Assembly (NCBI GenBank): GCA_022729705.1 | Contig: DZAX01000021.1 | Span: forward strand, 1-35,773 | Length of the DNA stretch: 35,773 bases | Reading direction: 5' to 3' | Source of the DNA: Helicobacter cetorum | GTDB taxonomy: Bacteria > Campylobacterota > Campylobacteria > Campylobacterales > UBA6016 | In this document: piece by piece, positions 14,709 to 35,587 of the stretch | How the letters are laid out: the number at the start of each line of letters is the position of its first letter | How positions within the stretch are numbered: position 1 is the first letter of the stretch | Made by a program: the position numbers and the translations under genes | The notes under the pieces: model-generated | Databases searched by the model: none | Told to the model about the DNA's origin: nothing | Seen by the model: the letters and a program-made list of their open reading frames with translations, nothing else

Positions 14709-14712
14709 TCAT
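14468..14712 (-). pseudogene. Broken small membrane-protein frame overlapping the glucokinase stop
   Basis: An ATG overlaps the glucokinase TGA as ATGA, the typical coupling of a downstream operon gene. The first frame gives 24 hydrophobic residues (MISKFIFLSILSLIFAV, then LVFSLLA) and stops at 14638. A one-base shift within the GGTTTTTTC run near 14654 continues with KIKKLFTIVLVAWQFGFVAPSF and stays open to TAA at 14468, giving a protein of about 80 residues with two hydrophobic segments. It may be a frameshifted gene, a sequencing error in the T-run, or a true 24-residue membrane peptide. I recognise no family. Confidence 0.3.
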
Positions 14713-15524
14713 AAAGCCAGTAGTTTAGCCCCGTCTAGCGAACCATTTTCTAGGTTTGAAAGTCTAATTTCGCACATATCGGCGCTTTTTTTAAACGCGT
14801 TTTTTTGGACATACTCTTTTATATCATCTATCATCCACTCATTTGCCAGCGTTATCCCGCCGCCTATGACCAGTAGTTTTGGATTTAGCATCGTGATGAT
14901 AAGAGCCGCCGCATACCCCACCCCATCTACAAACTCTTTTACTATATTTGCGCCCGCTTCGCTTTCTAACAACTCATTTAGCGTATGACAATCAAGCCCG
15001 ACCATCTTAGCCTTTTTTGCAAGCCCGCTTCCTGAGGCGCTAAGTTCAAGACAGTTATCCTTGCCACAACCGCATAGCTCACCCGTCGCAAAATACGGTA
15101 TATGCCCTATCTCGCCCGCTATATTGGCGTAGCCGCCCACAAGCCGCCCATCGTTCATGTAGGCGCTTCCAATACCTGTACCGACATACAAAACACTAAT
15201 ATTTTGCTCGTTGTGATACGCCGATTCCGCCAAAAGGGCGCATTTGAGGTCGTTTTGGACAAATATCTTTTTGGAGTCGCCAAAATAAGCTCCCAAATCA
15301 AGCTCTTTTGCTTTTATATTTGGAGCCGAAACAATACGATTATCTACCGTTTGCCCCGCAAAGGAGATTCCCACTCGACAGATATGAGGAAAAACCCTAA
15401 AAAGCTCTTCAAGTTCGACCACAATATCTATATCACTACTCGGTTTTGAAAAAGCTACAATCTCCTCGCCTTCCACAACACACCTAAAATTTGTACCGCC
15501 CCAATCTATATAAGCTATGCTCAT
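14709..15524 (-). CDS. glk: ROK-family glucokinase
   Basis: A 271-residue sugar kinase of the ROK family, expected to make glucose 6-phosphate from glucose and ATP. The N-terminal phosphate loop DWGGTNFR, catalytic Asp92 in QNDLKCALLAE, the VGTGIGSA segment, His141 in GEIGHIP and the zinc cysteines C151, C153 and C158 (CGCGKDNCLE) are all visible. Sugar specificity cannot be read directly; the glucan/glycolysis neighbourhood favours glucose released by the GH57 enzymes. TTTAGGAGC precedes the ATG. A class I hairpin element separates it from galT. Confidence 0.85.
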   Translation of the reverse strand: MSIAYIDWGGTNFRCVVEGEEIVAFSKPSSDIDIVVELEELFRVFPHICRVGISFAGQTVDNRIVSAPNIKAKELDLGAYFGDSKKIFVQNDLKCALLAESAYHNEQNISVLYVGTGIGSAYMNDGRLVGGYANIAGEIGHIPYFATGELCGCGKDNCLELSASGSGLAKKAKMVGLDCHTLNELLESEAGANIVKEFVDGVGYAAALIITMLNPKLLVIGGGITLANEWMIDDIKEYVQKNAFKKSADMCEIRLSNLENGSLDGAKLLAL

Positions 15525-15586: not shown

Positions 15587-15671
15587 CCCCCGCATTTATG
15601 CGGGTAACTTCAGGGGGTGCAGGGACATTTATGTCCTTGCCGCTAAAGACGGGCTTTGCCCGTCTTTAGCG
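15587..15671. repeat. Class I composite hairpin element (A-C-D) at the galT 3' end
   Basis: Module A: CCCGCAT/ATGCGGG at 15589-15604. Module C: GGACAT/ATGTCC at 15623-15636. Module D: a perfect 14-bp stem with TTT loop, 15641-15671, starting CGCTAAAGAC. The galT stop codon (15666-15668) lies inside the D stem. Module B is absent. Confidence 0.85.
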
Positions 15672-16709
15672 TGTAACATCATGTGCAACATCCAACAACC
15701 TCAAAAACTTAGCGCACTCCTCTGGAGCCACGCTATTTATATAGACTCCGCTAAAAAGTTCAAATCCGCCAATCACCGGAATTCTAGGCGCTATCTCTAT
15801 ATGCCACCCATAAAATTCATCTAACTTGTAATAAAAATTTGGCGTTAGCGCATCCCTTTTTGGCGGTGTCGTCTTCAAAAATATGTTATAAGATACGTCT
15901 TTTAGCGCCATACTAATACGCTTTACAGTCGATAACAAAATCCGCGAAAGCTCCAAAAGTGAATCGTCATTTAGCGTTGTAAAGTCCCTGCCGCCCTCTT
16001 TTAACGCCACAATACTCTCAAAAGGCCAAAAAGAAGCGTAAGGGCAGTATGAGACAAAATGGTCGCTCTCCTCTATTATTCTTGTTTTTGTTCTTAACTC
16101 GCTTTTTACTGTATCTCTAAACAAAGAGCGTGAAGTTGACTCAAAATATTTTCTACTCTGCTCTATCTCGGTCAATATATTTTTTGGAATAAACGGCATA
16201 CCGATAATCTGCGTATGCGGGTGAGATATGCTAGCCCCCGCAAGAGCTCCTTGATTTTTAAAAACGGAGACGTACTTAATTCGCGTGTCTTTTTGCAAAT
16301 CAGACACTCTGTCTCTAGCGCTTTTAAGCACCAAAGCAACCTCTTCGGCACTAAGCTCTTGAAACTTCGATGGAAACTTTGGGGTATCTATAATAATCTC
16401 GTGAGCGCCAAAACCATCCATACGCTCGTATGCGCCGTCAAAGTCAGACACTGGATTTTTCTCTATATCAAGAGCGTTGTATTTATTTGGCACAACTCTT
16501 ACTTTCCACCCCGGAGAGTCTTTTTTTGAGCCATAGCCTCTTATCGCATATATCTCCGATGGAGTCTTGTGTTCATTGCCGTACACAAAAGGCGACTCCA
16601 CGTCATATGCCTCAGCAGAGGAGAGCTCAAAATCAGATGGTCTGCGCACCCTGTTTGGAGAGATAATCACCCAATTGTCTTTTAGTTTGTTGTATCTATA
16701 GTGAGACAA
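15666..16709 (-). CDS. galT: Galactose-1-phosphate uridylyltransferase family protein
   Basis: A 347-residue HIT-superfamily nucleotidyltransferase. The active-site motif SHPHTQ has His163, His165 and Gln167, and GAHEIIIDTP (His103) and CPYASFWPFE are conserved. The usual zinc pair CPFC near residue 40 is replaced: Ser39 and Val42 stand where cysteines are expected. No galE or galK is near, so its job may be glucose-1-phosphate/nucleotide-sugar exchange or ADP-glucose phosphorolysis, as for plant GalT-like enzymes; this is inference. It starts at TTG (16707-16709) with AAGGAT from the end of the GH57 gene as ribosome-binding site. Its stop codon lies in a hairpin element. Confidence 0.85.
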   Translation of the reverse strand: MSHYRYNKLKDNWVIISPNRVRRPSDFELSSAEAYDVESPFVYGNEHKTPSEIYAIRGYGSKKDSPGWKVRVVPNKYNALDIEKNPVSDFDGAYERMDGFGAHEIIIDTPKFPSKFQELSAEEVALVLKSARDRVSDLQKDTRIKYVSVFKNQGALAGASISHPHTQIIGMPFIPKNILTEIEQSRKYFESTSRSLFRDTVKSELRTKTRIIEESDHFVSYCPYASFWPFESIVALKEGGRDFTTLNDDSLLELSRILLSTVKRISMALKDVSYNIFLKTTPPKRDALTPNFYYKLDEFYGWHIEIAPRIPVIGGFELFSGVYINSVAPEECAKFLRLLDVAHDVTR

Positions 16710-16710
16710 T

Positions 16711-18762
16711 TTACATATCCTTTATGCAAAGTTTGCCGGCAAAAACAGACTCTTTTGTAAAGTTTTTGTAAAACGCTATCGATACGCCCTGCGCGCACAC
16801 CTCGGCACCTTTTTCATTTTGGCTTACCGTGTTGGTTGGGACAACTATGACGGAGTAGCTATCTTGTAGTTCAAATAAAATCTCTTTTTTATATACGGAG
16901 TCTTTGATGGATAGAGAGCTAACATCGCTTAGTTCCAACGCTTTTGCTCCAAAGAGGGTGCCATTTATCATCAGCGCTTCATAGTCGCAAAAGTGCAGGT
17001 TAAACTCTTCTGCAAAAATAAACTTTATATTGCCGGCATAGTCGTCATGGTCGCAAATAGAGATTTCAAACTCCAAAGCGTCTTTTGTGATAGTAAACTC
17101 TTTTGATACGGTCGCCGCTATCTTAAAATCACCAATATATATGCCGCCGTCTCTCTCAAAATCAGCTCCCCCTTCATCAGAACCCATCAGTGTAAACGGT
17201 TGATTTGCAAAGTCCCCATACTCCCTAAAAGAGCACTCAAAAAAGCTTGACGCGCAAAAATAGTCATCTGTGATATGCTCTATAAACGAGTTTTTTTGAT
17301 ACCAGTCGTAAAATAGATTCTCTTTTATAACCTCGGCACCCTCTAGGCTAATATCGTGAATAGTGTCTATTCCCTCATCCGTCGCCTCTTTTTTGGCTCC
17401 GCTCTCGCTTGCAAAAAACTTTGTGTGATACGCCTCTTGACGTCTTGTAAGGGTGTTTTGATAGTTAAAAAGAGCATCAAAAGAGCTAAAATCACTCATC
17501 TGCGCACCGTTTTTCTCTTCAAAAACAACCATAAAAGCGTCGTTTTTAAGTCTTGCTTCCATGTATCCGTCAAAGTTTTCATCGCTTATCTCAACGCTTT
17601 TTTTGACGCCAATCTTTTTTTCACACGCTATAATGTGTTTGTAGCAGTTGTCTCTAAGATTTGGCAGATATACGCCGCCAAATACGCCGTGCCACAAAGC
17701 GTCGTTTGCCTCTGTTTTTAAAAGAGCTTCGTCAAACTCCGCATTGTTTGCCGCTTTTGCGAGCTTTGAGAGACGGATTGTTTTTTTGTGGATTCTATTT
17801 GACTCTTCGTATTTACTAAAAAAGTTTTTCCAAATACCGCCTTTTACAAACTTATCGGCGTTTACCCCGCCAAATGCCGCAGCTGTGCGATGTTTTACGC
17901 ACTCTATCAAGGATGCGTCATGCGGATTAAGAGACCACTCGCCCATCTCATAGTACGAAACCCCAGGTAAATAAGCGAGTCCCAAAGGTTTTACCGCGTC
18001 AAAATATTCGCTAAAATGCAACGCCTCTATTTTTTCAGAATCCTTTACGCCATCCAAAAACTCTCTTAACCACCCTTTTTCATACACCCACTCGTATGTG
18101 TTTGGCCATAATCCAAATTTTTCACCGTCATCAAAGATAATAGCCGCTTTGTCGATTCTCGCCTCAGACTCAAGCTCGGCTATCGCCGTAGACGCTTTTT
18201 TAAACGGCATTAGATAACGAAGCTGTTTTGAGATAGGAAACACCCCAAGCTTCTCTCCGCCCTCTTCTGTAAAATAATATCCGTTTAGTGAGTTTTCATC
18301 ATATCCAGCGGCTATAAAGTGGTAATCATCGGTGATAATATACTCAATTCCCTGCTCGCAAAGGCTAGCCACAATAGATTCGCTCCAAACCCTCTCGGTT
18401 AGCCATAATCCTCTAGGTTTTGCGCCAAAGTTGACAAACAAAAAGTCGTTCATTTTTTTGATTTGCAACGCCCTATCTCTTGGGGGTATAGCCGCCAAAA
18501 TAGGCTCATAAAATCCACCTGAAAAAAACTCAATCATTCCCTTGTCGTAGCATGATTTTATCAGTGAAAAAAGCTTTTTATCATTGTTTTTTATAAACTC
18601 AAAAAGCCAACCGCTAATATGAAGCGAAAATTTAAACCAATCATCATTTTTTACCGTCTCAAAAAACGGCTTATAGCTCTTTTCTATCGCCTCATAGACA
18701 ACTTTATCAAAATTGTCTATCGGCTGATGAGAGTGAAGACCCAGTAGTAGTTTTGTTTTCAT
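16711..18762 (-). CDS. GH57 4-alpha-glucanotransferase-like enzyme
   Basis: A 683-residue family 57 enzyme resembling the Thermococcus litoralis 4-alpha-glucanotransferase (about 660 residues). The HSHQP motif lies at 10-14 and the nucleophile Glu123 is in WLTERVW. The acid pair is in FDDGEKFGLWP (Asp211/Asp212). DUF1925/DUF1926-type beta domains fill the C-terminal half. It likely disproportionates maltodextrins so that the phosphorylase-like protein and glucokinase can use them. No signal peptide is seen, so it should be cytoplasmic. It is two bases from galT and translationally coupled to it. A class II element lies directly upstream. Confidence 0.88.
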   Translation of the reverse strand: MKTKLLLGLHSHQPIDNFDKVVYEAIEKSYKPFFETVKNDDWFKFSLHISGWLFEFIKNNDKKLFSLIKSCYDKGMIEFFSGGFYEPILAAIPPRDRALQIKKMNDFLFVNFGAKPRGLWLTERVWSESIVASLCEQGIEYIITDDYHFIAAGYDENSLNGYYFTEEGGEKLGVFPISKQLRYLMPFKKASTAIAELESEARIDKAAIIFDDGEKFGLWPNTYEWVYEKGWLREFLDGVKDSEKIEALHFSEYFDAVKPLGLAYLPGVSYYEMGEWSLNPHDASLIECVKHRTAAAFGGVNADKFVKGGIWKNFFSKYEESNRIHKKTIRLSKLAKAANNAEFDEALLKTEANDALWHGVFGGVYLPNLRDNCYKHIIACEKKIGVKKSVEISDENFDGYMEARLKNDAFMVVFEEKNGAQMSDFSSFDALFNYQNTLTRRQEAYHTKFFASESGAKKEATDEGIDTIHDISLEGAEVIKENLFYDWYQKNSFIEHITDDYFCASSFFECSFREYGDFANQPFTLMGSDEGGADFERDGGIYIGDFKIAATVSKEFTITKDALEFEISICDHDDYAGNIKFIFAEEFNLHFCDYEALMINGTLFGAKALELSDVSSLSIKDSVYKKEILFELQDSYSVIVVPTNTVSQNEKGAEVCAQGVSIAFYKNFTKESVFAGKLCIKDM

Positions 18763-19034: not shown

Positions 19035-21149
19035 TCATATATACCAATCTTCCAAAAACTTCTCATTTACTTCCAGTTGCAATGAACCATAAAGCGGGGC
19101 TTTTTCTATCACTTTACCGCTTTTTTGTATCTCAAACGAAGCCTCAAGCAGCTTGTCACATCCGCATTCAAGACATGATTTTGGCAAAGATAGCTCAAAC
19201 ACCTCGCCTACGCTTGACTGCGTATATCCGCCAATACCCGCTTCCACGCAATCCATTTTATATTTTTTTGATGAAAAAGGAACTTTTATTTTTATCGCCT
19301 TTGAGCTCACAAGTTCTACGCACAAATCATATCCGCTATCAATCAACTCCGCAAATTTTCCGCTAATTGCAAAATATATGTTCTCCTCATCAAACCCCCA
19401 ATACAACTTTTCAAAATGAAATCCACTAGAGTCCATAGCTGAAAACTCAGTGTCAAGGTCAACGCTTCCAGCGCCAAGCCACTCATAAAAATCCGTCATT
19501 TTGCCGTCAATTATAGGAGCTATGTAATTTTTTGGCTTTTGTTTTACTTTTGGAGCTTTTGTTTTGTTGATAGACTCAAAAAGTCTAGCCGGTGGCGCTT
19601 TGCCTATAATTCTAAAAACATTTAGAAGATGTTTTCGAAACAATTCGTCAAATTCGTTTGCCTGTGGGGTATAGTGATCGTCTCCATACCACCAAAACCA
19701 ATCCGAACCCTCAGCCACCATAAGCTCTTTTTGCGCGACTTTTAACGAAGCGGCGTCTAGCGCCCCTTTTACCTCGTCAAAAGCGATTTTTGTTTCTGAC
19801 AAAAGCTCCCACGCCCTGTTTTTTTCCTCATGCCCCATCCATGTCGAAAATGTGCCGTATATCCAGCTTCCCGGTTTTATAGTCTCAATCCGTGAAGATT
19901 CGATATGTTTTGCGGCAAACACTTCGCTAAATGTAAGCGTCTCGCACCAATCTAGCTTTTCAAGCTCCATATAAAGCGTCTCAAAAAAATCTTTTGCGTT
20001 ATGCTCATAATACTCCCAAGCGTTTTCACCGTCAAGAATAATAGGCACAACCGCTTCAAAACCGATAGAGTGATAAAGCTCTTTTAGTCTGCCTATAAAA
20101 TCAGCCACGGACTCTTTTGCGTCTTTGCCTGAATATGTGAAGCCCACAAGGTCACTAATAGCCTTATCACGAAATAAAACGCCGATAGTATTCTCTTTTC
20201 CAACCGTATATCTTTTATAAATATCAAATCTATATCTAGACTCCAAGCTCTTAAAAAGCACGTCTTCATCGGCGCCAACATACTTAACGCCGGCTTTTGA
20301 TAGTAGCTCCAACACCTCTTTGCTCACAGAACCCTCTGAGGGCCAAAAAGTGTTTGGTTTTTTGCCAAAAGTCTCCTCATATTTCGCAATAGACATCTCC
20401 ACATGCACAAGAGCGTCGGAGCGAAAATTTGCAAATATCTTTGGTGTTTGGGCGTTTCTATCCGCCTCTTTTGCGGCGTTTTTGTCTAGTAAAAGCGGAA
20501 GTATCGGGTGATAAAACGGTGTAGTAGCGACTTCTATTTTGCCCTCGTCTTGAAGCTTTTTGTAAAACGGTATTATCTTCCCGAGAAATGCAAAAAGCTC
20601 GGCAAACAGCTCAGCTTTATCAAACTCTGAAAAGTTTTGGGCTTTTTTGATTAGATTTTGAACGATTGTAGAGTTTTCCCTTAGCGCATTAGAACACCAA
20701 GAGAGTAAAAACAAAACCTCTAAATCCAAAATTTCATCAGAGCCGATAGAGTCCGCAAAGCTCTGCGTATCTTTGTACGACGTCTTTTTGGCGTGCAACT
20801 GTCTATATCTTGCAAGCGGATGTATCATTGTTTTTAGATTGGCAAAAAAAAGCGTCTCACAAAGAGAGAGCTTCTCTTTTGGCGTCAAAAGAGAGACCTC
20901 TTTTTTGACGCTAGATAAAAAACTATCGTTTATAAACCCTTTTTCATACTCTTCAAGCTGTTCTATTAGCGAGGGAACAAGATTAAAGGTCGCCTTTATG
21001 CTCTTAAACTTGGACAGATAGTAAGGCAACTCATAGTAGTCCTTAATGGCGTGCAAAAAAACCCACGGCATTTTGTACTCATTTTGCATATCGTCTTTGT
21101 AATAAGGCTGGTGCATATGCCACAAAAATGCTAAGCGAATTTTTTTCAT
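19035..21149 (-). CDS. GH57 alpha-amylase/amylopullulanase-like enzyme
   Basis: A 704-residue family 57 glycoside hydrolase of the amylopullulanase-like branch. HMHQPYY is at 11-17, Glu272 is in FWPSEGSVS and Asp373 in ILDGENAWEYY, the two predicted catalytic acids. The last 150 residues form a beta-rich, carbohydrate-binding-like domain. It probably debranches or hydrolyses stored alpha-glucan in the cytoplasm; no signal peptide is seen. I start at ATG 21147-21149 rather than seven codons earlier: AGAGG lies just upstream, and the first residues then match the family (MKKIRLAFLWHMHQP). It follows the nucleotidyltransferase fusion by two bases. Confidence 0.85.
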   Translation of the reverse strand: MKKIRLAFLWHMHQPYYKDDMQNEYKMPWVFLHAIKDYYELPYYLSKFKSIKATFNLVPSLIEQLEEYEKGFINDSFLSSVKKEVSLLTPKEKLSLCETLFFANLKTMIHPLARYRQLHAKKTSYKDTQSFADSIGSDEILDLEVLFLLSWCSNALRENSTIVQNLIKKAQNFSEFDKAELFAELFAFLGKIIPFYKKLQDEGKIEVATTPFYHPILPLLLDKNAAKEADRNAQTPKIFANFRSDALVHVEMSIAKYEETFGKKPNTFWPSEGSVSKEVLELLSKAGVKYVGADEDVLFKSLESRYRFDIYKRYTVGKENTIGVLFRDKAISDLVGFTYSGKDAKESVADFIGRLKELYHSIGFEAVVPIILDGENAWEYYEHNAKDFFETLYMELEKLDWCETLTFSEVFAAKHIESSRIETIKPGSWIYGTFSTWMGHEEKNRAWELLSETKIAFDEVKGALDAASLKVAQKELMVAEGSDWFWWYGDDHYTPQANEFDELFRKHLLNVFRIIGKAPPARLFESINKTKAPKVKQKPKNYIAPIIDGKMTDFYEWLGAGSVDLDTEFSAMDSSGFHFEKLYWGFDEENIYFAISGKFAELIDSGYDLCVELVSSKAIKIKVPFSSKKYKMDCVEAGIGGYTQSSVGEVFELSLPKSCLECGCDKLLEASFEIQKSGKVIEKAPLYGSLQLEVNEKFLEDWYI

Positions 21150-21151
21150 AG

Positions 21152-23653
21152 TTACGCCTCTTTCGACCATTCTATAATCTTACCTGCAAACTCGTTGAAT
21201 ATAGCTTCTCCATCGCTAGCCTCTGCGGCTTGAACGTAGATATTTAGATGATCTGAATGTTGATCTGGAAGCATTAAAATCCAATCATTTTTCTTTATCA
21301 TAATCTTGACGCCATCCACAAAAGACGCCTCTTTACCCACAGACGCTTCCATAAACTTACGCATCATTTTACCTTTAAGATTTGAGGCGCACGGCACTTT
21401 TTCGTAGTGAAAATAAAAAGATGTTAGTGAATCTTTAATCTCTTGAAGCGATTTGTTAGAGCCTGAGAGCATCTCAAGAATTTTGATACTCGCAAAAATA
21501 GCGTCGTTGCTATACGCAAACTCACCAAACGCAAAATTACCGCTTAGGTTTGCTATAAGGTCATACTCTTTGAGTTTATTCGCCTTTGCGCCACTTAGCT
21601 TGCCTCTTTCGATAGTTAGATTTTCAAATTCATTATCCAAAAAGTCTGGAGCACTTACAGGAAGGTAAACTTTTGATTTTTGATTTTTTGAGTTCATATC
21701 AAATAGTTTCAGCACCGTCAAAAGTTGCATTCGCGAGTCAAGAAGCTCTCCCGCGTCGGTAATCATCTCCAGCTTCTGACCGTTAGGGTATATGATATAC
21801 GCCATATTCATGCCAAGGTGTTTTACTATTTTTGACAAATCCTCTCTAGCTTTTTCTATTAGAGCCGGAAGTCTATTTAATTTTTTATCGTCTGCGTATG
21901 CGTTTAGTATGATATTGTCCACATTTAGAGAGGTCAAAATCTCAGGATATATATCAGAGGTTGAACCAAATAGTAAGTCAAGTGCTACTTTTGGTTTTTT
22001 GACTTTTATCGCGTCCGTGTTAAGCGCTTTTAACACCGCTTTTTTATATTTTTCTTTTAGGTTTGCTTTTTCACTTACCTGACCTATTTCGTCAAAGTTT
22101 ACCCGTCTAAAACTCTCTCTAAAAAACACTCTTTCGCAACTTTTTTCCGTATCGGTGTCTATATGCAGACCTTCGTGCGTAAAAAACAAAATCTCAGTAT
22201 TTTGCTGATTTACAACAGATTGCCTAAAGTGTACGCCCGCCACTACGTCTTTTGCCTCTTTTATGCCAAATCTTGCTATGTTTGACGGGGTAATATGTAT
22301 ATCCACAACATTAACGCCGGAAGAGAGTAGTCCTGAGAAAAACGCCCTTTTTAGCATTTGTGAAGATTTGTGATAGTCTCTTGAAAGATACACTTTACTT
22401 CCAACTGGAAGTAAAGAGCCAAACGACTCCGCAAGCTTAATAGCCATTTCACATGAGAGTTCTACGTTTGTTCTGCCGCTTACTACGCCGCCCTCGAAAA
22501 TTGAGTTTTTGTATTTGTTGCCCCAAACTATGTTGTTGCTTACAATACTAGCGGATTCTACTATTTTATCAGGCCATACCGTCACGTCGTTTTCAAACGA
22601 TACAGAATCGCCTATCTCGCACCCCTCGGCAAGTATAAGCCCTTTTGTTACTTTCACTTTTTTACCTATTTTGTTTTTTGAGCAGATAACGCTATTGTGA
22701 ACTCCGCATTTCTCGCCAATTTCTATCTCATCCCATATAGCGCTATCTTCCAAAACGCTGTTTTTACCGACTATAGTTTTATCGCCCACAACGCAATTGT
22801 CTAGCTTTACGCCATCCTCGATAACGCTGTTTTTACCGACTACAACTATCCCCTCTATCGAAGCCGACTCAGATACTTTGGCTCCCTCTTCAATATAAAG
22901 CGTACCGGTATTTCGCTCTATTTTTTCACCTCTAATACTAAGAGCGACTTTGCCGCTTAGCAGGTCTTTTTGGACTTCTCTATAGCTCTCAGGATTGCCG
23001 ACGTCTCTCCAATAACCCCTAACAGAGCACGCCCAAAGAGTAACTCCCGCTTTCATCAAAGATGGAAACAAATCTTTTCCAAAGTCATAGTTGGTGCTTT
23101 CCGGAATATGCTCTAAAATGCTCGGGTGCAAAATATATATACCCGTGTTTATCGTGTCAGAAAACACCTCACCCCAGCTCGGCTTCTCCAAAAATCTCTG
23201 TATTTTACCCTCAGGCGACGATATAACTACGCCAAACTGCAACGGATCGGCAACAGGGGTTAAAGTGATGGTAAGAAGTGACTCTTTTTTCTTATGGAAC
23301 GCTATAATCTCGTTTAAATCAAAGTCAGTCACAAGGTCGCCGCTTACGACGATAAACTCTTCGTCCAAAAATTTTTCAGCGCACTTAACCGCTCCTGCTG
23401 TGCCGTAATCATTATCGGGAAGCATATACTCTATATTTACGCCAAACTCACTTCCGTCTTTAAAGTAATCTTTGATAACTTCTGGTTTAAAGTATAATAA
23501 GATAACAATATCTTTAATTCCAGCGTCTCTCACTTTTTCAATGATGTGTTGCATCATTGGTCTATTTAAAATTGGGAGCATCGGCTTTGGTACAGAGTGT
23601 GTAAGTGGTTGTATCCTCGTTCCAAATCCGCCCGCCATTACTACCGCTTTCAT
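21152..23653 (-). CDS. Sugar-phosphate nucleotidyltransferase fused to a degenerate phosphohexomutase domain
   Basis: An 833-residue three-part protein. Residues 1-235 are a nucleotidyltransferase (MAGGFGTRIQPLT, KPMLPI, SGDLVTDFD). Residues about 250-380 are a left-handed beta-helix of hexapeptide repeats. Residues about 385-833 are a phosphoglucomutase/phosphomannomutase-like domain. This last part lacks the TASHNP phosphoserine loop (AGVHFRQS at 472-479 instead), the DGDGDR metal loop (YPNGQK near 622-627) and the C-terminal RPSGTEP loop (LPDQHSD). Similar fusions in cyanobacteria and other phyla are annotated as mannose-1-phosphate guanylyltransferases. The nucleotide and sugar cannot be read here; the locus suggests glucose 1-phosphate. 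A promoter precedes it. Confidence 0.82.
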   Translation of the reverse strand: MKAVVMAGGFGTRIQPLTHSVPKPMLPILNRPMMQHIIEKVRDAGIKDIVILLYFKPEVIKDYFKDGSEFGVNIEYMLPDNDYGTAGAVKCAEKFLDEEFIVVSGDLVTDFDLNEIIAFHKKKESLLTITLTPVADPLQFGVVISSPEGKIQRFLEKPSWGEVFSDTINTGIYILHPSILEHIPESTNYDFGKDLFPSLMKAGVTLWACSVRGYWRDVGNPESYREVQKDLLSGKVALSIRGEKIERNTGTLYIEEGAKVSESASIEGIVVVGKNSVIEDGVKLDNCVVGDKTIVGKNSVLEDSAIWDEIEIGEKCGVHNSVICSKNKIGKKVKVTKGLILAEGCEIGDSVSFENDVTVWPDKIVESASIVSNNIVWGNKYKNSIFEGGVVSGRTNVELSCEMAIKLAESFGSLLPVGSKVYLSRDYHKSSQMLKRAFFSGLLSSGVNVVDIHITPSNIARFGIKEAKDVVAGVHFRQSVVNQQNTEILFFTHEGLHIDTDTEKSCERVFFRESFRRVNFDEIGQVSEKANLKEKYKKAVLKALNTDAIKVKKPKVALDLLFGSTSDIYPEILTSLNVDNIILNAYADDKKLNRLPALIEKAREDLSKIVKHLGMNMAYIIYPNGQKLEMITDAGELLDSRMQLLTVLKLFDMNSKNQKSKVYLPVSAPDFLDNEFENLTIERGKLSGAKANKLKEYDLIANLSGNFAFGEFAYSNDAIFASIKILEMLSGSNKSLQEIKDSLTSFYFHYEKVPCASNLKGKMMRKFMEASVGKEASFVDGVKIMIKKNDWILMLPDQHSDHLNIYVQAAEASDGEAIFNEFAGKIIEWSKEA

Positions 23654-28721: not shown

Positions 28722-29684
28722 CTAGCCTAGTAGTTTTGTGGCTAATTTGAGCAGATCCGGCTTTATCTGATATTTTTGAGAGTTTATATAGTCTATACTC
28801 ACAAAATCAAACTTTGAATCTCTGGATATTATGACGTTTTTATCATCTGGTTTTAGCATCAGCTTATCTATGGCGAGTCTCGCAAATTCAAAAGCCATCA
28901 ATCTATCAAAAACGCTTGGGCTTCCACCTCTTTGTATATGCCCAATCGTACTTGCTCTTGAGTCCATACCTATCTCTGTTTTAAACCATTCGCATACTTC
29001 GTCGGTTCTACCGCTTCCCTCTGCTACTATAGCCAAAATATAGCTTCTACCCTCTTTTATCTCTTTTTTAAATCTCGTTTTTAGCGTTTCTAAATTTGTT
29101 TGCATCTCAGGGATAATAACCATCTCCGCTCCGCTTGTAAGAGCCGATACAAGGGCCAAATAACCGCAATCTCTTCCCATTGTCTCAATCACAAACGCTC
29201 TTTTAAAGCTAGCCGCCGTATCTCTAATGTCATCTATTGACTCTCTAATGACATTTAGAGCCGTATCCACGCCAAGGCAGTAGTCGGTGCCAAATATATC
29301 GTTGTCTATCGTAGTTGGTATACCGACAAAATTTATCCCAAAATCGTGATAAAACTGTCTCATAGCGCGAAATGAGCCGTCGCCGCCAAGTACTACAAGC
29401 TTGTTAATATCTTTGGCTTTTAGATTTTCATACGCCGTCTTTCTATGCTCTATTTCAAAAAAACGTTTTGAGCGAGACGAACGAATCACCGTCCCACCTC
29501 TATGGATAATGCCGCCCACTCTCTCGTGCGTAGCCTCTTTGATGTCTCCGTCTATAAGCCCCTCAAGTCCGTCATAAATGAGATACGACTTAAGCCCAAG
29601 TTCAAAGCCGTACTCAACGAACTGCTTTATGGCCGGATTCATACCTGCGGCGTCGCCGCCCGAACACATTATGGCTATTGACAT
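28722..29684 (-). CDS. pfkA: ATP-dependent 6-phosphofructokinase
   Basis: A 320-residue PfkA, which phosphorylates fructose 6-phosphate to the 1,6-bisphosphate. The nucleotide loop GGDGS (100-104) has Gly103, and TTIDND (124-129) has catalytic Asp127. Both point to ATP rather than pyrophosphate as donor (pyrophosphate enzymes typically have GGDDS and PKTIDND). The first loop is SGGDAAGMN, with Ala13 where Pro is common. ETMGRDCGYLAL and HIQRGGSPS are intact. Many Campylobacterota lack this step, so it is the marker of a working glycolytic direction. RBS GGGGAT lies before the ATG. Confidence 0.93.
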   Translation of the reverse strand: MSIAIMCSGGDAAGMNPAIKQFVEYGFELGLKSYLIYDGLEGLIDGDIKEATHERVGGIIHRGGTVIRSSRSKRFFEIEHRKTAYENLKAKDINKLVVLGGDGSFRAMRQFYHDFGINFVGIPTTIDNDIFGTDYCLGVDTALNVIRESIDDIRDTAASFKRAFVIETMGRDCGYLALVSALTSGAEMVIIPEMQTNLETLKTRFKKEIKEGRSYILAIVAEGSGRTDEVCEWFKTEIGMDSRASTIGHIQRGGSPSVFDRLMAFEFARLAIDKLMLKPDDKNVIISRDSKFDFVSIDYINSQKYQIKPDLLKLATKLLG

Positions 29685-29693
29685 ATATATCCC

Positions 29694-30962
29694 CTATTGT
29701 TTATTATTCAATTTCTCATAAAGCTTTACTTTGCCAAACTCTACGCCCGGTTGGTCGTATGTGTTTATACCAAAACGAGCTCCAGCCAACGCCGTCAAAA
29801 GTTCAAAGTAAAAAATCAACGCTCCAATACTCTCTTCATTTAAGGAGTCAAGCTCTATTACGTCTACTTTTACGCCTCTTTCAACAAGCGTCTCCAATGT
29901 CGCGTCACACTGTGAATTTAAAAGTTCGGAAAAAGGAAGCTCATTTACAAAATCTGTTTTTTCTAGATTTTTCAAGCTAACGCTTGGTATTTTTGAGTTA
30001 TTTTTGAAGTTTTTTACCCTTACAAAAGTAACCGTTTTATTTTTTGGCCCCTCTATGATAAGCTGTAGAAACGAGTGTTGGTCAACAGAACCGATAAGGC
30101 CTATTGGAGTAAGCCCAACGCTTTTGCCCTCGGCATCTATTTTACCAAGACTCTCAGCCCAAAGCTGAATATACCAAGCCGTTAGTTTTTCAAGAGAGCT
30201 TGAGTATGAAAAAAGCACGTTTATAGGAAAAACTTCATAGTTATCTGCGTAATATGCAGCTTTTCGTATCATATCTTTTTCATTGCCGTCAAAAAAACTT
30301 TTTTTGAGTTTTGCGGCGCCAAGTAGTAACTTTCTAATATCATAACCCAAAATCGCAAGAGGAAGGAGACCCACGGCGCTAAGAACTGAAAATCTACCTC
30401 CAACGTTTGGAGCTATATAAAATCGCTCCAACGAAAGATCTGCGCCAAAACTATCAAGCGGCGACCCCTCATCCGTTACAAGCAAAAATCTTTTTTTGAG
30501 TTTTGGATCTTCTTGTCCGTCAAAAAACTTATGGATTACAAGCTTTGCAAGACTCGTAGTCTCTACAGTTGAGCCTGATTTTGAAATCATAATAAATATT
30601 GTGTCTTTAGTGCTAACGCCTTCAAGCGACGAATTTATCTCATTTGGATCGCAATTTTCCAAAAAGATTAGCTTTGTATCATTTCTATTTTTGGTGTGTT
30701 TTAGCGCCGTGTCTATCGCTTTTGTACCAAGAGAGGAGCCGCCTATGCCCAATACGACAAGATTTTTTATCTTGCCTTTATAGACGGCGTTGTTTGTCAG
30801 GATAAATCTATATATTTTATCCATAGTGTCGCCGGAGCTGGTCGGAAGAGCATAAAAGCCAATTTTAGCCTGCTCCTCTTTGATTTTGCCCAAAAGATTG
30901 TCTACAACCTCGTCTGAAACTTTCATCTCAACGTCTTCAAATAAGAGCCTGCTAGAAATCAT
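29694..30962 (-). CDS. pgi: Glucose-6-phosphate isomerase
   Basis: A 422-residue sugar isomerase converting glucose 6-phosphate and fructose 6-phosphate. The phosphate-binding loop SKSGSTVET, GRFSVLSAVGLLP, EGKSVGLTPIG and the DQHSFLQLIIEGP segment with catalytic residues are present. It is shorter than the E. coli enzyme (about 550) but within the range of compact bacterial forms. It begins one base after the gap stop codon; the ribosome-binding GGGGGAT comes from the end of gap. Confidence 0.93.
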   Translation of the reverse strand: MISSRLLFEDVEMKVSDEVVDNLLGKIKEEQAKIGFYALPTSSGDTMDKIYRFILTNNAVYKGKIKNLVVLGIGGSSLGTKAIDTALKHTKNRNDTKLIFLENCDPNEINSSLEGVSTKDTIFIMISKSGSTVETTSLAKLVIHKFFDGQEDPKLKKRFLLVTDEGSPLDSFGADLSLERFYIAPNVGGRFSVLSAVGLLPLAILGYDIRKLLLGAAKLKKSFFDGNEKDMIRKAAYYADNYEVFPINVLFSYSSSLEKLTAWYIQLWAESLGKIDAEGKSVGLTPIGLIGSVDQHSFLQLIIEGPKNKTVTFVRVKNFKNNSKIPSVSLKNLEKTDFVNELPFSELLNSQCDATLETLVERGVKVDVIELDSLNEESIGALIFYFELLTALAGARFGINTYDQPGVEFGKVKLYEKLNNKQ

Positions 30963-30963
30963 T

Positions 30964-31959
30964 TTATCCCCCTATATATTTTGCCATATCGACGAGTCTA
31001 GATGTGTAACCCCATTCGTTGTCATACCAAGCGACCACTTTTACCATATCGCCGTCAACTACCTGTGTAGAATCAGGCACAAAAATCGCACTAAAAGTAG
31101 AACCGATAAAATCAGATGAGACTCTCATATCTTCGTCATATTCTACAAGACCTTTGTAGCCGTTTTGTGACGCTTCTTTAAAAATTGCGTTAATTTCATC
31201 TTTCGTAACGCTTCTTTTTAGGAGGCAGCTCATATCCACAATAGATACGTCAGGAGTTGGAACCCTTAGTGAGTAACCGTTTAGTTTGCCGTTTAACTCA
31301 GGGATTACTTTGCCGATAGCTTTTGCGGCTCCGGTACTTGTAGGTATGATATTAATAGCCGCCGCTCTCGCCCTTCTTTTGTCTTTTGGGTGCTTGACGT
31401 CTAAGATATTTTGGTCGTTTGTATAGCTATGCACAGTCGTCATAATCCCTTTTTGGATACCTACTGCATCGTGGAGTATTTTTGTGATTGAACCTAGGCA
31501 ATTGGTTGTACAAGAAGCGTTGGAGATGATGGTCTCACCTCTGTACTCTTGATGATTTACGCCGTATACGTAAGTCGGGGTGTCGTCTTTTGCGGGAGCC
31601 GACATCAATACTTTTTTTACACCGCCTTTTATGTGTGCAAGAGCCAAATCCATTGAGAGAATAGCTCCCGTGCACTCTATGACAAGTTCTGCGCCGCAAG
31701 AGCCAAAATCTACGTTTTTCGGATCCCTGTCTGAAAATATTTTAACTGTGTCTTTACCTATCTGAAAAGTTTTGTCGTCTATAAGTTTTACGCTATCAAA
31801 TACGCCGTGCACAGAGTCATATTTTAATAAATATTCAAGCATATCAGGCTTCATTGTCGCATTTACCGCTACAAGCTCTATGTCGCTTCTTGCGGCTATT
31901 ATTCTTGCCGCTATCATTCCTATTCTTCCAAAACCATTGATTGCTACTTTTAATGCCAT
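30964..31959 (-). CDS. gap: Glyceraldehyde-3-phosphate dehydrogenase (type I)
   Basis: A 331-residue NAD(P)-dependent enzyme forming 1,3-bisphosphoglycerate. INGFGRIG opens the Rossmann fold; catalytic Cys150 is in SNASCTTNC, and HSYTNDQ, RARAAAINIIPTSTGAAKA and WYDNEWGY are intact. After the second strand the sequence reads AVNAT, with Ala34 where NAD-specific enzymes carry Asp, a pattern of GapB-type enzymes that accept NADP. It is the first gene of a six-gene glycolytic run, with TAGGAG before the ATG and a TATGAT box about 40 bases upstream. Confidence 0.95.
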   Translation of the reverse strand: MALKVAINGFGRIGMIAARIIAARSDIELVAVNATMKPDMLEYLLKYDSVHGVFDSVKLIDDKTFQIGKDTVKIFSDRDPKNVDFGSCGAELVIECTGAILSMDLALAHIKGGVKKVLMSAPAKDDTPTYVYGVNHQEYRGETIISNASCTTNCLGSITKILHDAVGIQKGIMTTVHSYTNDQNILDVKHPKDKRRARAAAINIIPTSTGAAKAIGKVIPELNGKLNGYSLRVPTPDVSIVDMSCLLKRSVTKDEINAIFKEASQNGYKGLVEYDEDMRVSSDFIGSTFSAIFVPDSTQVVDGDMVKVVAWYDNEWGYTSRLVDMAKYIGG

Positions 31960-32290: not shown

Positions 32291-33727
32291 TTAGTATATA
32301 TTACAAACCGTTTTTGCGTGCTGTATATCGGACGCTCTCATCACCCTGATAAGATTTGTGGTGCCTTGTTGTCCTGTTGGGTAACCTATTGTTACGATAT
32401 ATGTGCCGCTCTCGCTCATCACTCCAAGTTCAAGCGCCCTCATTGTAAATTCGCACAGCATTCTATCGGTACTCTCGTGCTCGCTTAACACAAATAGCGG
32501 CTTAACACCCCACACAATAGCGAGTCTTCTAAAAACCTCTATCGAATGAACAGGAACCAAAATTTCAGGCTTTGGTCTGTATTTTGAGAGACTTCTTGCG
32601 CTTCCGCCGCTTCTTGTAAAGGCTATAAGCGCATCAGGCTCCAAATCCTCAGCCATTCTATTTGCAGCTATCGCTATCGCTTCGTCTGGATTGTGGATTT
32701 TGTCCAAGTTTCTATAAAAAGGATAGATTTTTTCAATTTCACAAATTGTCTCGTTTAGAGCTTTTATCGCCTCTATTGGGTATTTGCCCACAGTAGTCTC
32801 ATCGGAGAGCATAACCGCATCCGTACCATCCAAAACGGCATTTGCTATATCGCTCACCTCTGCTCGCGTCGGGTATGGCGAGGCTATCATCGAGGTTAGC
32901 ATTTGCGTGGCGGTTATCACAGGGATACCTTTGCGATTTGCGGCGTTTATTATCTCTTTTTGCGCCGTAGGCACTTTTGAGAGTCCAAGTTCAACGCCAA
33001 GATCCCCTCTTGCAACCATAAGTCCATCGGCCGCCTCAACTATTGTCGCTAGGTTATTAACAGCTTCCGATTTTTCTATTTTTGCAAATATCGGGCAGTT
33101 ACCGCCAAATCCGGCTACAATTTTTTTTGCCTCTTCTATGTCTTCACGCGATTTGATAAACGATACAGCCATCATATCAACGCCTATTTTTACGCCAAAT
33201 TCCATATCTTTTATATCTTTTTCAGTTATCGCCGAAATTGGAAGATTAGCGTTTGGAAAGTTGACCCCTTTTTTGCTCGTCAAATCACCGCCGATTACTA
33301 TTTTTGTTTTTACAACGCCGTTTGAGTTGTCAAAAACTTCGCATCTGATACAGCCGTCGGCTAGATATATAAGGTCTCCGCTTTTTAGAGATGGGAGAAT
33401 ATGCGGGTGGTTAATTGTAACGCCGTGTTTATCGTCAAAACCCGGTTTTTCATAAAAGCTAAGCGTATCGTCAGGCTCAAGCACCATAACACCGTCAACC
33501 TCTCCAACTCTAATTTTTGGTCCCGATATGTCTTGCAACACCGCTACACACGCACCAAGCTTATCGGCCACTTTACGAACTTTTAGTAAATTCGCACCGT
33601 GATACTCATGCGTAGAGTGCGAAAAGTTAAATCTAAAAACATTTACACCAGCAAGAATCAGCTTTTCAATCATCTCCTCAGAATCTGTCGCAGGACCAAC
33701 CGTCGCAACTATTTTTGTTTTTCTCAT
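32291..33727 (-). CDS. pyk: Pyruvate kinase
   Basis: A 478-residue canonical pyruvate kinase making pyruvate and ATP from phosphoenolpyruvate and ADP. FRFNFSH, QDISGPKIRVG, FAKIEKSEAVNNL, VARGDLGVELG, TATQMLTSM and MLSDETTVGKYP are all intact, and the C-terminal regulatory domain (about 350-478) is complete. This contrasts with the N-extended homologue at 23758. AAGGAAA precedes the ATG, and two overlapping TATGAT boxes (33768-33778) may drive it. It lies between two class I hairpin elements and so may be transcribed on its own. Confidence 0.95.
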   Translation of the reverse strand: MRKTKIVATVGPATDSEEMIEKLILAGVNVFRFNFSHSTHEYHGANLLKVRKVADKLGACVAVLQDISGPKIRVGEVDGVMVLEPDDTLSFYEKPGFDDKHGVTINHPHILPSLKSGDLIYLADGCIRCEVFDNSNGVVKTKIVIGGDLTSKKGVNFPNANLPISAITEKDIKDMEFGVKIGVDMMAVSFIKSREDIEEAKKIVAGFGGNCPIFAKIEKSEAVNNLATIVEAADGLMVARGDLGVELGLSKVPTAQKEIINAANRKGIPVITATQMLTSMIASPYPTRAEVSDIANAVLDGTDAVMLSDETTVGKYPIEAIKALNETICEIEKIYPFYRNLDKIHNPDEAIAIAANRMAEDLEPDALIAFTRSGGSARSLSKYRPKPEILVPVHSIEVFRRLAIVWGVKPLFVLSEHESTDRMLCEFTMRALELGVMSESGTYIVTIGYPTGQQGTTNLIRVMRASDIQHAKTVCNIY

Positions 33728-33791: not shown

Positions 33792-33945
33792 CTCCCGCAT
33801 TCATGCGGGTAGCTTTAGGGGGTCGCAAGGGACATTTATGTCCTTTGCCGCTAACGGGAGCTTTGCTCGTGTTAGCGTGTAACATTTGAAATTTTGTAGG
33901 GACATTTATGTCTCTGCTGCTAGTGCGGGCTTCGCCCGTACTAGC
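33792..33945. repeat. Class I composite hairpin element with tandem C-D units at the GT35 gene 3' end
   Basis: A: CCCGCAT/ATGCGGG, 33794-33809. First C: 33830-33843; first D: 33849-33877 (one G-T and one G-G pair). Second C: 33898-33915 (one G-T); second D: 33919-33945 (12-bp stem, TTC loop, one G-T). The phosphorylase stop codon TAG (33941-33943) lies in the second D stem. The C-D unit has been duplicated here and module B is absent. Confidence 0.85.
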
Positions 33946-35587
33946 AATTGTATTTATATAACTTCTCATAATACTCATTCGCCATTCTACCGGTATCAAA
34001 TACCGGCGCAATATCAGTCATAGAGTTTTTAACAATCGTAAGCCACTTATCGTGTTCGTCATAATAAGTTGGTATTATCTCAGTTTCAAGAATATTTAAA
34101 AGATTGAAAGCGTCCTCTTCATCTTGGCTAACAATATCTTTGTCGCCATCTTGAAATATCGTATAGCAGTTTTCACCATGCTTTTGAAATTCAAGGTGCC
34201 AACCGTCGTTTATAGAGAAGTTAATAGCTCCATTCATGGCGGCGCTCATACCGCTAGTTCCAGACGCTTCTCTTGTAACCCTTGGTGTGTTTAGCCAAAT
34301 ATCGGCGCCTTTTTTTAGCATATTTGAAAGACTAATCTCATATCTCACCAAAACGGCGCATCTTTTTAATTTGTCGGTCGTATACACAAGCTCGTTAAAG
34401 AGTTTTATAGCGCTGCCGTCGGCTGGATGCGGCTTACCAGCCCAGATAACCTGTATCGGTCTATCTTTTCTAGTTACAAGCTCATAAAACTTCTCCCAGT
34501 TTCTCTTGATTAACCCGGCTCTCTTATACTCCGCAAATCTTCTTGACCACACAATAGTCAAAATTTCAGGGTCAAACATCTTGCCTGTTTGATCCGCAAC
34601 CTCGTCAAATAATTTTCTTTTTAGGTGTTTTTTTCTAGCCAAAAGCCCGTATTCATCGTATTCATCGTATGCATTTTGCAAAGGCTTGTCCGCCCAAAAC
34701 TTCTTATTTTGCGCATTTGTGATGTAAATTATCGGACATCTGCCCTCACAACTTTCCCACATCTTATTTGCTACGTCGCCGTGAAGTTTTGAAACGGCGT
34801 TAGCTATTTTGGATAGTTTTAGAGCGCCCATAGTAAGCGAAAATCTGCCGCCGTTGTGTCCTATTATTTTTTTAACATCATCCATGCTTACGCCGTTAAA
34901 AAACCCCATTCTGTGGAGTAAGTGGCAATCATGATCTTCATTTCCAGCCGCCTCCGGAGTGTGCGTTGTAAATACCATTCTCTTTTTTACTTCTTCAACG
35001 TCGTTAAACTTGGAGTATAGATGAAACGCTACAGGAAGAGCGTGCCCCTCGTTCATGTGGTAAATTTCCGGCGTTACATTCGCCTCTTCCAAAACTTTGG
35101 CTCCGCCAATTCCAAGCACAATCTCTTGTGCGATTCTAGTCTCTTCTTGCGCTTCGTAGAGCTTATGCGTAATTGTTCTAGCTAGATAGTCGTTTTCTGG
35201 TATATCAGTCGTAAGAAGATAAACAGGAACAGTGCCGAATATCTCTTCTCTCAATAGATAGGCTTTTACAAAAACATCGGCGCCGCTTATTTTCACCTTT
35301 ACTATAATGCCCGTTTCCTCTAAAAATGAGTATGATTTACGTCTATAAATAACATTCATAGAGTTATCTTCGTTTCTAGTCTGATCGTAGTAGCCAAAGC
35401 TCCACAAGATACCAATACCCACAACCTTTTGTCTCAAATCATGGGCGCTTCGCATGTGCGAACCGGCCAAAAACCCAAGACCTCCCGAATATATTTTTAG
35501 AGCTTGATGGATTGCAAACTCCATAGAAAAATATGCTACTTTTTTGGAATATTTTGGGTCTATGCTAGCGTGATGTAGATTTTCCAT
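33941..35587 (-). CDS. GT35 alpha-glucan phosphorylase-like protein lacking the PLP lysine
   Basis: A 548-residue short-type alpha-glucan phosphorylase homologue (GT35), which normally releases glucose 1-phosphate from glucan ends. YFSMEFAIH, YSGGLGFLAG, MNEGHA, TTHTPEAAGNE, RRFAEYKR and AGKPHPADG are recognisable. In the cofactor motif, EASGTSGMS, residue Ser448 occupies the position of the lysine that binds pyridoxal phosphate (EASGTxxMK in known phosphorylases), and AGSH (Ser43) replaces the usual AGDH. It is therefore either a variant enzyme or not a phosphorylase. It starts the glucan/glycolysis locus; RBS AAGG lies before ATG, and its stop codon is in a hairpin element. Confidence 0.85.
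   Translation of the reverse strand: MENLHHASIDPKYSKKVAYFSMEFAIHQALKIYSGGLGFLAGSHMRSAHDLRQKVVGIGILWSFGYYDQTRNEDNSMNVIYRRKSYSFLEETGIIVKVKISGADVFVKAYLLREEIFGTVPVYLLTTDIPENDYLARTITHKLYEAQEETRIAQEIVLGIGGAKVLEEANVTPEIYHMNEGHALPVAFHLYSKFNDVEEVKKRMVFTTHTPEAAGNEDHDCHLLHRMGFFNGVSMDDVKKIIGHNGGRFSLTMGALKLSKIANAVSKLHGDVANKMWESCEGRCPIIYITNAQNKKFWADKPLQNAYDEYDEYGLLARKKHLKRKLFDEVADQTGKMFDPEILTIVWSRRFAEYKRAGLIKRNWEKFYELVTRKDRPIQVIWAGKPHPADGSAIKLFNELVYTTDKLKRCAVLVRYEISLSNMLKKGADIWLNTPRVTREASGTSGMSAAMNGAINFSINDGWHLEFQKHGENCYTIFQDGDKDIVSQDEEDAFNLLNILETEIIPTYYDEHDKWLTIVKNSMTDIAPVFDTGRMANEYYEKLYKYNC

Follow-up and report, generated by a model that had tools for sequence, protein, structure and literature searches.

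A clade of GT35 glucan phosphorylase homologues without the cofactor lysine, a candidate PLP-independent alpha-glucan phosphorylase

According to reviews, every phosphorylase has pyridoxal phosphate (PLP) bound to one particular lysine (PMC12267944), and the GT35 members characterised are without exception phosphorylases (PMC8950772). In GT35 enzymes it is the phosphate of PLP that does the chemistry (PMC9081730), and an SNi-like front-side scheme with phosphate as the proton donor has been put forward for GT4 and GT35 (PMC8950772). It has also been proposed that PLP replaced a nucleoside monophosphate in the ancestral GT35 enzyme (PMC11046441). A GT35 glycogen phosphorylase from M. maripaludis was reported to be PLP-independent (Gonzalez-Ordenes et al. 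2024, cited in PMC12267944). Among the open papers covered by our literature search, none described a bacterial Lys-less GT35 clade.

A GT35 protein with serine at the cofactor position

The protein studied here is a Lys-less GT35/TIGR02094 protein of 548 aa, encoded on the minus strand at 33941..35587 of the window, that is, the whole 35,773-nucleotide stretch of DNA that was analysed. The NCBIfam profile search gave a TIGR02094 match of 472 bits, over the curated cut-off of 191.7, and Pfam a PF00343 match of 63 bits. The models for canonical GlgP (TIGR02093, 60 bits) and for GT5 glycogen synthase (TIGR02095, 37 bits) stayed under their cut-offs of 552.9 and 328 bits, respectively. The AF2 model of the protein (pLDDT 91.3, pTM 0.90) has the GT-B phosphorylase fold, with TM 0.91 to 20yr and 0.89 to 9l6i, and its best fold match was the glycogen phosphorylase of Segatella copri (TM 0.9).

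The PLP lysine of the EASGTxxMK motif is absent from this protein. Sequence reading gives EASGTSGMS at residues 440-448 (34244..34270, minus strand), with Glu440 and Thr444 kept and Ser448 at the lysine position, encoded by AGC on the minus strand at 34244..34246 (GCT on the plus strand). When EASGTSGMS was aligned by phmmer with EASGTSGEK of the S. copri structure 9l6i, Ser448 stood opposite the PLP lysine. A sequence-only reading had pointed out this serine as well as Ser43 of AGSH (35459..35461, minus strand), and we found both to be correct: the codon and the 9l6i alignment agree on the first, and position 43 is S in 125/125 relatives, D in 79/79 Lys-type TIGR02094 proteins and C in 5/5 canonical GlgP proteins.

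Distribution, origin and active site of the Lys-less clade

A first relative search used peptide patterns that left out residue 448 and gave 80 loci, 54-86% identical, all of them with Ser, Thr or Ala at the site and none with Lys. A second search, an unbiased one for all TIGR02094 family members of Campylobacterota, Bacteroidota and Verrucomicrobiota, found both Lys-less and Lys-type proteins. The TIGR02094 proteins of about 550 aa that were read were without the lysine and all had AGS; the Lys-type proteins read (longer, or 578-708 aa) all had the lysine, with AGD wherever the motif was located. These sequences were brought together in a residue alignment of 209 proteins, comprising 125 Lys-less, 79 other TIGR02094 and 5 canonical GlgP proteins. 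Site 448 was Thr in 73, Ser in 48 and Ala in 4 of the Lys-less relatives, and Lys in 79/79 and 5/5 of the other two groups, respectively. The alignment with TIGR02094 members that the sequence-only reading had suggested therefore places Ser, Thr or Ala in 125/125 relatives and Lys in 84/84 others. TIGR02094 was matched by 58/58 aligned clade members. Plasmid-borne members from Pontibacter actiniarum and Runella rosea have Thr at the site; Lys was read there in the Lys-type examples taken from another five phyla. On the Runella rosea plasmid, a gene of the pyridoxamine 5'-phosphate oxidase family follows the Lys-less GT35 gene (L289:9642-10082), which may be coincidence.

Two maximum-likelihood trees set the Lys-less proteins, which come from Campylobacterota, Bacteroidota and Verrucomicrobiota, on one side of a branch with a long stem. 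The branch had an SH-aLRT of 100 in the first tree and bootstrap/SH-aLRT of 100/100 under the mixture model; the backbone within TIGR02094 was poorly supported, and the sister group of the clade is not nameable from these trees. As canonical GlgP and Lys-type TIGR02094 proteins both retain the lysine, the simplest account of the sequences is a single loss in the common ancestor of the clade. The suggestion that the window protein belongs to a PLP-independent GT35 subfamily holds as far as a distinct Lys-less clade is concerned (125/125 vs 0/84, support 100/100), while absence of the cofactor is likely and is something that we infer.

Seven residues were identical in all 209 proteins: His209, Asn291, Arg350, Lys355, Lys385, Glu440 and Thr444. 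By motif, we take these to be the equivalents of rabbit phosphorylase His377, Asn484, Arg569, Lys574, Lys608, Glu672 and Thr676, with their roles assigned from established knowledge of the rabbit enzyme. On this motif equivalence the residues of the glucose and phosphate sites (rabbit His377, Asn484, Arg569, Lys574 and Glu672) are invariant throughout the clade. His209 (34961..34963; 125/125, 79/79 and 5/5 in the three groups) and Asn291 (34715..34717) belong to the glucose site, and Arg350 and Lys355, the invariant ends of R-F-A-E-Y-K (34523..34540), to the phosphate site, all on the minus strand. Besides the loss of Lys at 448, the clade has its own invariant changes, namely Ser43, Trp62, Gln293, Pro386, Glu417, Ser421 and Lys425. 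Glu417, Ser421 and Lys425, each found in 125/125 clade members and rare or absent elsewhere among the 209 proteins, are spaced at i, i+4 and i+8 in residues 417-425 (34313..34339, minus strand), a segment after the rabbit Tyr648 equivalent that is helical in the AF2 model. The matching helix face of rabbit phosphorylase contacts PLP, and from these contacts the Glu417-Ser421-Lys425 face would be expected to line the PLP pocket. To judge from the residue pattern, the pocket appears rebuilt as opposed to merely broken.

Gene neighbourhood and other glycogen genes

In the window, the Lys-less gene heads a run of genes on one strand (minus): pyruvate kinase, the next gene downstream (32291..33727), GAPDH (30964..31959) and glucose-6-phosphate isomerase (29694..30962), all named from sequence and kept in order in the nearest relative (L004), then 6-phosphofructokinase (28722..29684; profile matches) and further glycolytic and glucan genes. 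Downstream on the same strand are a sugar nucleotidyltransferase fused to a phosphohexomutase (21152..23653; profile matches), a GH57 enzyme (19035..21170; PF03065, 205 bits), a GH57 enzyme of the 4-alpha-glucanotransferase/alpha-amylase type (16711..18762; PF09095, PF03065, PF09094), a GalT-like hexose-1-phosphate nucleotidylyltransferase (15666..16709; TIGR00209, 122 bits, over cut-off) and a ROK-family sugar kinase, probably a glucokinase (14709..15524; PF00480, with TIGR00744 below cut-off). The same run holds a second, unusual pyruvate-kinase-like protein (23758-25563, minus strand), for which the closest model, PRK14725, scored below its cut-off.

Among the 58 Campylobacterota loci with enough flank, 49 had at least one glycogen gene within 10 kb of the Lys-less gene and 39 had at least three. 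The neighbours were GlgA, a GH57 or GH13 branching enzyme, a GH57 glucanotransferase, the GalT-like protein, the nucleotidyltransferase-mutase, Pgm and glucose-6-phosphate isomerase (PGI). At one locus (L283), a Lys-type enzyme, Pgm, PGI, the Lys-less protein, the nucleotidyltransferase-mutase, two GH57 enzymes and GalT follow in series on one strand. The operon survey of Bacteroidota and Verrucomicrobiota loci found no neighbour common to them. Three further observations were made on gene order. In many glycogen operons, the GH57 branching enzyme gene is separated from the Lys-less GT35 gene (or from GalT) by the gene of a small DUF4912 protein (L040:11661-12314, L027:12465-13142 and about 20 other loci). 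A protein of about 1060 aa that combines a GH15 domain with the C-terminal domain of phosphorylase b kinase (KPBB_C), and so is related to phosphorylase kinase alpha/beta, adjoins the Lys-less gene and is followed by glucokinase (L037:11648-14827, plus strand; also L039, L065 and L070). Finally, L008 and L024, titled Desulfosporosinus and Helicobacter pylori, have a gene order nearly identical to that of the Arcobacteraceae locus L009, and their titles look wrong.

In the source genome of the window, contig C10 carries the gene of a canonical GlgP of 823 aa with EASGTGNMK (L003/L122), and contig C22 a GlgA gene. The tetranucleotide composition of C10 matches that of the window (r = 0.98), which opposes a contaminant origin of the GlgP-bearing contig. 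With this lysine-containing GlgP in the same genome, the proposal that glucan breakdown here would depend on the GH57 enzymes and glucokinase fails. The occurrence of another Lys GlgP alongside the Lys-less protein, a point raised by the sequence-only reading, differed between phyla: a canonical Lys GlgP was found in the source genome and a Lys-type TIGR02094 protein in 8 Campylobacterota genomes, but a Lys GT35 of any kind in 0/19 Bacteroidota and 0/16 Verrucomicrobiota genomes.

In Campylobacterota, the Lys-less protein occurred in 20/150 genomes, 8 of which also had a Lys-type TIGR02094 protein. Seen from the other side, 8/10 genomes with a Lys-type TIGR02094 protein also had the Lys-less one, and this positive association weakened the idea that the clade replaces GlgP everywhere. 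Among the 37 genomes first found, an additional long Lys-type GT35 protein, with its Lys read, was clearly present in one. GlgA was found in 19/20 Campylobacterota genomes with the Lys-less protein, the exception being G053. In that genome the Lys-less gene (L102, G053:C1:456702-458231) is interrupted by in-frame stops and frame changes, and its glycogen pathway is in parallel decay.

The 148 Bacteroidota genomes, counted by score class with residues read in the fetched members, fell without overlap into 19 with the Lys-less protein, 80 with Lys-type TIGR02094 and 28 with a canonical-type match only, so that a Lys GT35 was present in 0/19 genomes with the Lys-less protein vs 108/129 without it (the Fisher tests ignore kinship). 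The 145 Verrucomicrobiota genomes, counted in the same way and with the same limit on the tests, showed 16 with the Lys-less protein and 127 with another GT35, again without overlap, and a Lys GT35 in 0/16 genomes with the Lys-less protein (the Akkermansia group) vs 127/129 without it. GT5 GlgA was found in 0/16 genomes of the Akkermansia group, and GT3 and GlgC were absent in those tested; G184, G354, G429, G438 and their relatives have neither a GT5 GlgA nor a Lys GT35. A divergent GlgB-like GH13 protein, which scored about 280 bits and so stayed below its model cut-off, was present in the two Akkermansia-group genomes scanned by model. Many Bacteroidota possess a GT5 or GT3 enzyme or the genes of a trehalose-to-glucan route, and Pontibacter has GlgB, TreS-maltokinase, TreY and TreZ, with full GT5, GT3 and GlgC absent.

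Candidate functions and comparison with known systems

We tentatively favour the reading that the clade is a PLP-independent alpha-glucan phosphorylase in which the lysine was lost once and the pocket was rebuilt; we infer phosphorolysis, the absence of PLP and the role of the rebuilt pocket. It was ranked first because both the glucose site and the phosphate site are preserved and because, in most genomes, it is the Lys-less protein that fills the phosphorylase slot. The protein would bind the non-reducing-end glucose of an alpha-1,4-glucan together with a phosphate. Inorganic phosphate, positioned by Arg350, Lys355 and the GGLG loop, would attack C1 on the face of the leaving chain and would itself give the proton, as has been proposed for the GT4 trehalose phosphorylases, which are PLP-free. 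Glu417, Ser421, Lys425 and Thr/Ser448, in the former PLP pocket, may partly stand in for the PLP phosphate, and the glucose-1-phosphate produced would pass to the products of the adjacent mutase and glycolysis genes. By analogy, the M. maripaludis enzyme may serve as a precedent. The earlier statement that the standard phosphorolysis mechanism should fail without the Schiff base was too strong, since the catalytic work falls to the phosphate of PLP (PMC9081730) and a PLP-independent phosphorylase has been reported from M. maripaludis. Two observations count against the phosphorylase reading. The 8 Campylobacterota genomes with both Lys-type and Lys-less proteins, in the same operon in L283, hint at different jobs, and in the Akkermansia group, with no recognised glycogen synthase, a pure phosphorylase would be left with no nameable endogenous source of substrate.

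The same observations bear on the main rival, a possible but rather unlikely reading, that the protein is a nucleotide-sugar-dependent alpha-glucan glucosyltransferase with the nucleoside part of NDP-glucose in the vacated PLP site. It would fit a protein in which the phosphate and glucose residues are kept, the lysine is gone and the pocket is polar, including the invariant Glu417; one that shares an operon with a Lys-type phosphorylase in L283; and one that is the sole alpha-1,4-glucan synthase candidate in the Akkermansia group, where GT5 is lacking (0/16) and the GlgB-like protein is present. The proto-GT35 proposal, with PLP replacing a nucleoside monophosphate (PMC11046441), points the same way, as does the reported inhibition of the M. 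maripaludis enzyme by ADP-Glc, UDP-Glc and ADP. On the other hand, nearly all Campylobacterota with the Lys-less protein already have GlgA, which leaves no obvious need for a second synthase, and many Bacteroidota already have their own glucan-forming GT5, GT3 or trehalose route. Single-sequence matches to TIGR02095 were found for 31/58 Lys-less vs 14/36 Lys-type proteins, but profile-profile comparison to GlgA placed the Lys-less clade (E 9e-4) no closer than the Lys-type proteins (8e-5), and a special GlgA-likeness of the clade was dropped. An unlikely further form would have the whole clade in its three phyla, and with it the only GT35 that the Akkermansia group has, swap PLP for a nucleotide and turn a phosphorylase into an NDP-glucose-dependent alpha-glucan synthase. 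If true, evolution would here have run the origin proposed for glycogen phosphorylase in reverse.

It is improbable that a B6 cofactor is still used, whether held with no Schiff base or by a different lysine, for instance the clade-specific Lys425 or Lys31. Reduced phosphorylase without the Schiff base is known to be active, and Lys425, invariant (125/125) and specific to the clade, lies one helical turn from the position of a PLP-contacting residue of the rabbit enzyme. PLP in GT35 acts through its phosphate (PMC9081730), which would also agree with retention. Against it, two positions close to where the cofactor would sit have changed along with the lysine (Asp43 to Ser, and the R649 equivalent to Glu), a pattern that fits a different ligand, and the negative charge of Glu next to the phosphate of PLP would be unfavourable. 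That the protein is a catalytically dead relative with a glucan-binding or regulatory role is doubtful at best: a lost cofactor lysine is a typical mark of a pseudoenzyme, in some genomes an intact Lys-type enzyme is found alongside, and the GH15-KPBB_C protein, which is phosphorylase-kinase-like, adjoins in a few genomes, but all mappable glucose- and phosphate-binding residues are invariant over three phyla, making a merely regulatory role less likely, and the protein is the sole GT35 in most genomes that carry it. That Ser448 reflects a sequencing error, a pseudogene or a contaminating contig was rejected as practically negligible, with no supporting point found, because the same residue class runs through 125 proteins from independent assemblies and because the nearest relative, L004, from an independently assembled genome, also has Ser at the site (86% identity over the match, 77% DNA identity), keeps the gene order and gives a dN of 0.089 with saturated dS, indicating purifying selection.

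The whole evidence base for the clade is comparative. Given a Lys-less clade this large and conserved, the name 'alpha-glucan phosphorylase' that automatic annotation assigns stands unproven in many genomes, those of the Akkermansia group among them. The clade also opens two questions to test: to what extent phosphorolysis truly depends on PLP, and whether PLP and a nucleotide can replace each other in the GT35 fold.

Among known systems, GT5 glycogen synthase GlgA has the GT-B fold in common with the clade and sits in the same operon in many Campylobacterota, but its sequence similarity is only remote. GT4 trehalose phosphorylase is likewise a retaining GT-B phosphorylase with an SNi-like mechanism (PMC8950772), but its family and substrate are different and the analogy is one of mechanism only. 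The M. maripaludis phosphorylase, a GT35 member reported without a need for PLP, is archaeal, and its likeness to the clade lies in this reported property. The canonical glycogen and maltodextrin phosphorylases (TIGR02093; rabbit GP, E. coli MalP, GlgP) share the GT35 catalytic core, but they are of 800 aa or more, have the PLP lysine and are 16-19% identical to the Lys-less protein in fold alignments. Closest are the Lys-type TIGR02094 phosphorylases (S. copri GP 9l6i; bacterial forms of 702-742 aa and of 578-708 aa), which share with the clade the fold (TM 0.9), the profile (E 2e-125), the glucose and phosphate residues and the EASGTSGM motif. From these the Lys-less clade differs by Lys448 to Thr/Ser/Ala, Asp43 to Ser, a rebuilt helix 417-425, TNG to TNA and GKA to GKP, and, compared with the 700-aa forms, the Lys-less protein is missing an N-terminal extension of about 100 residues.
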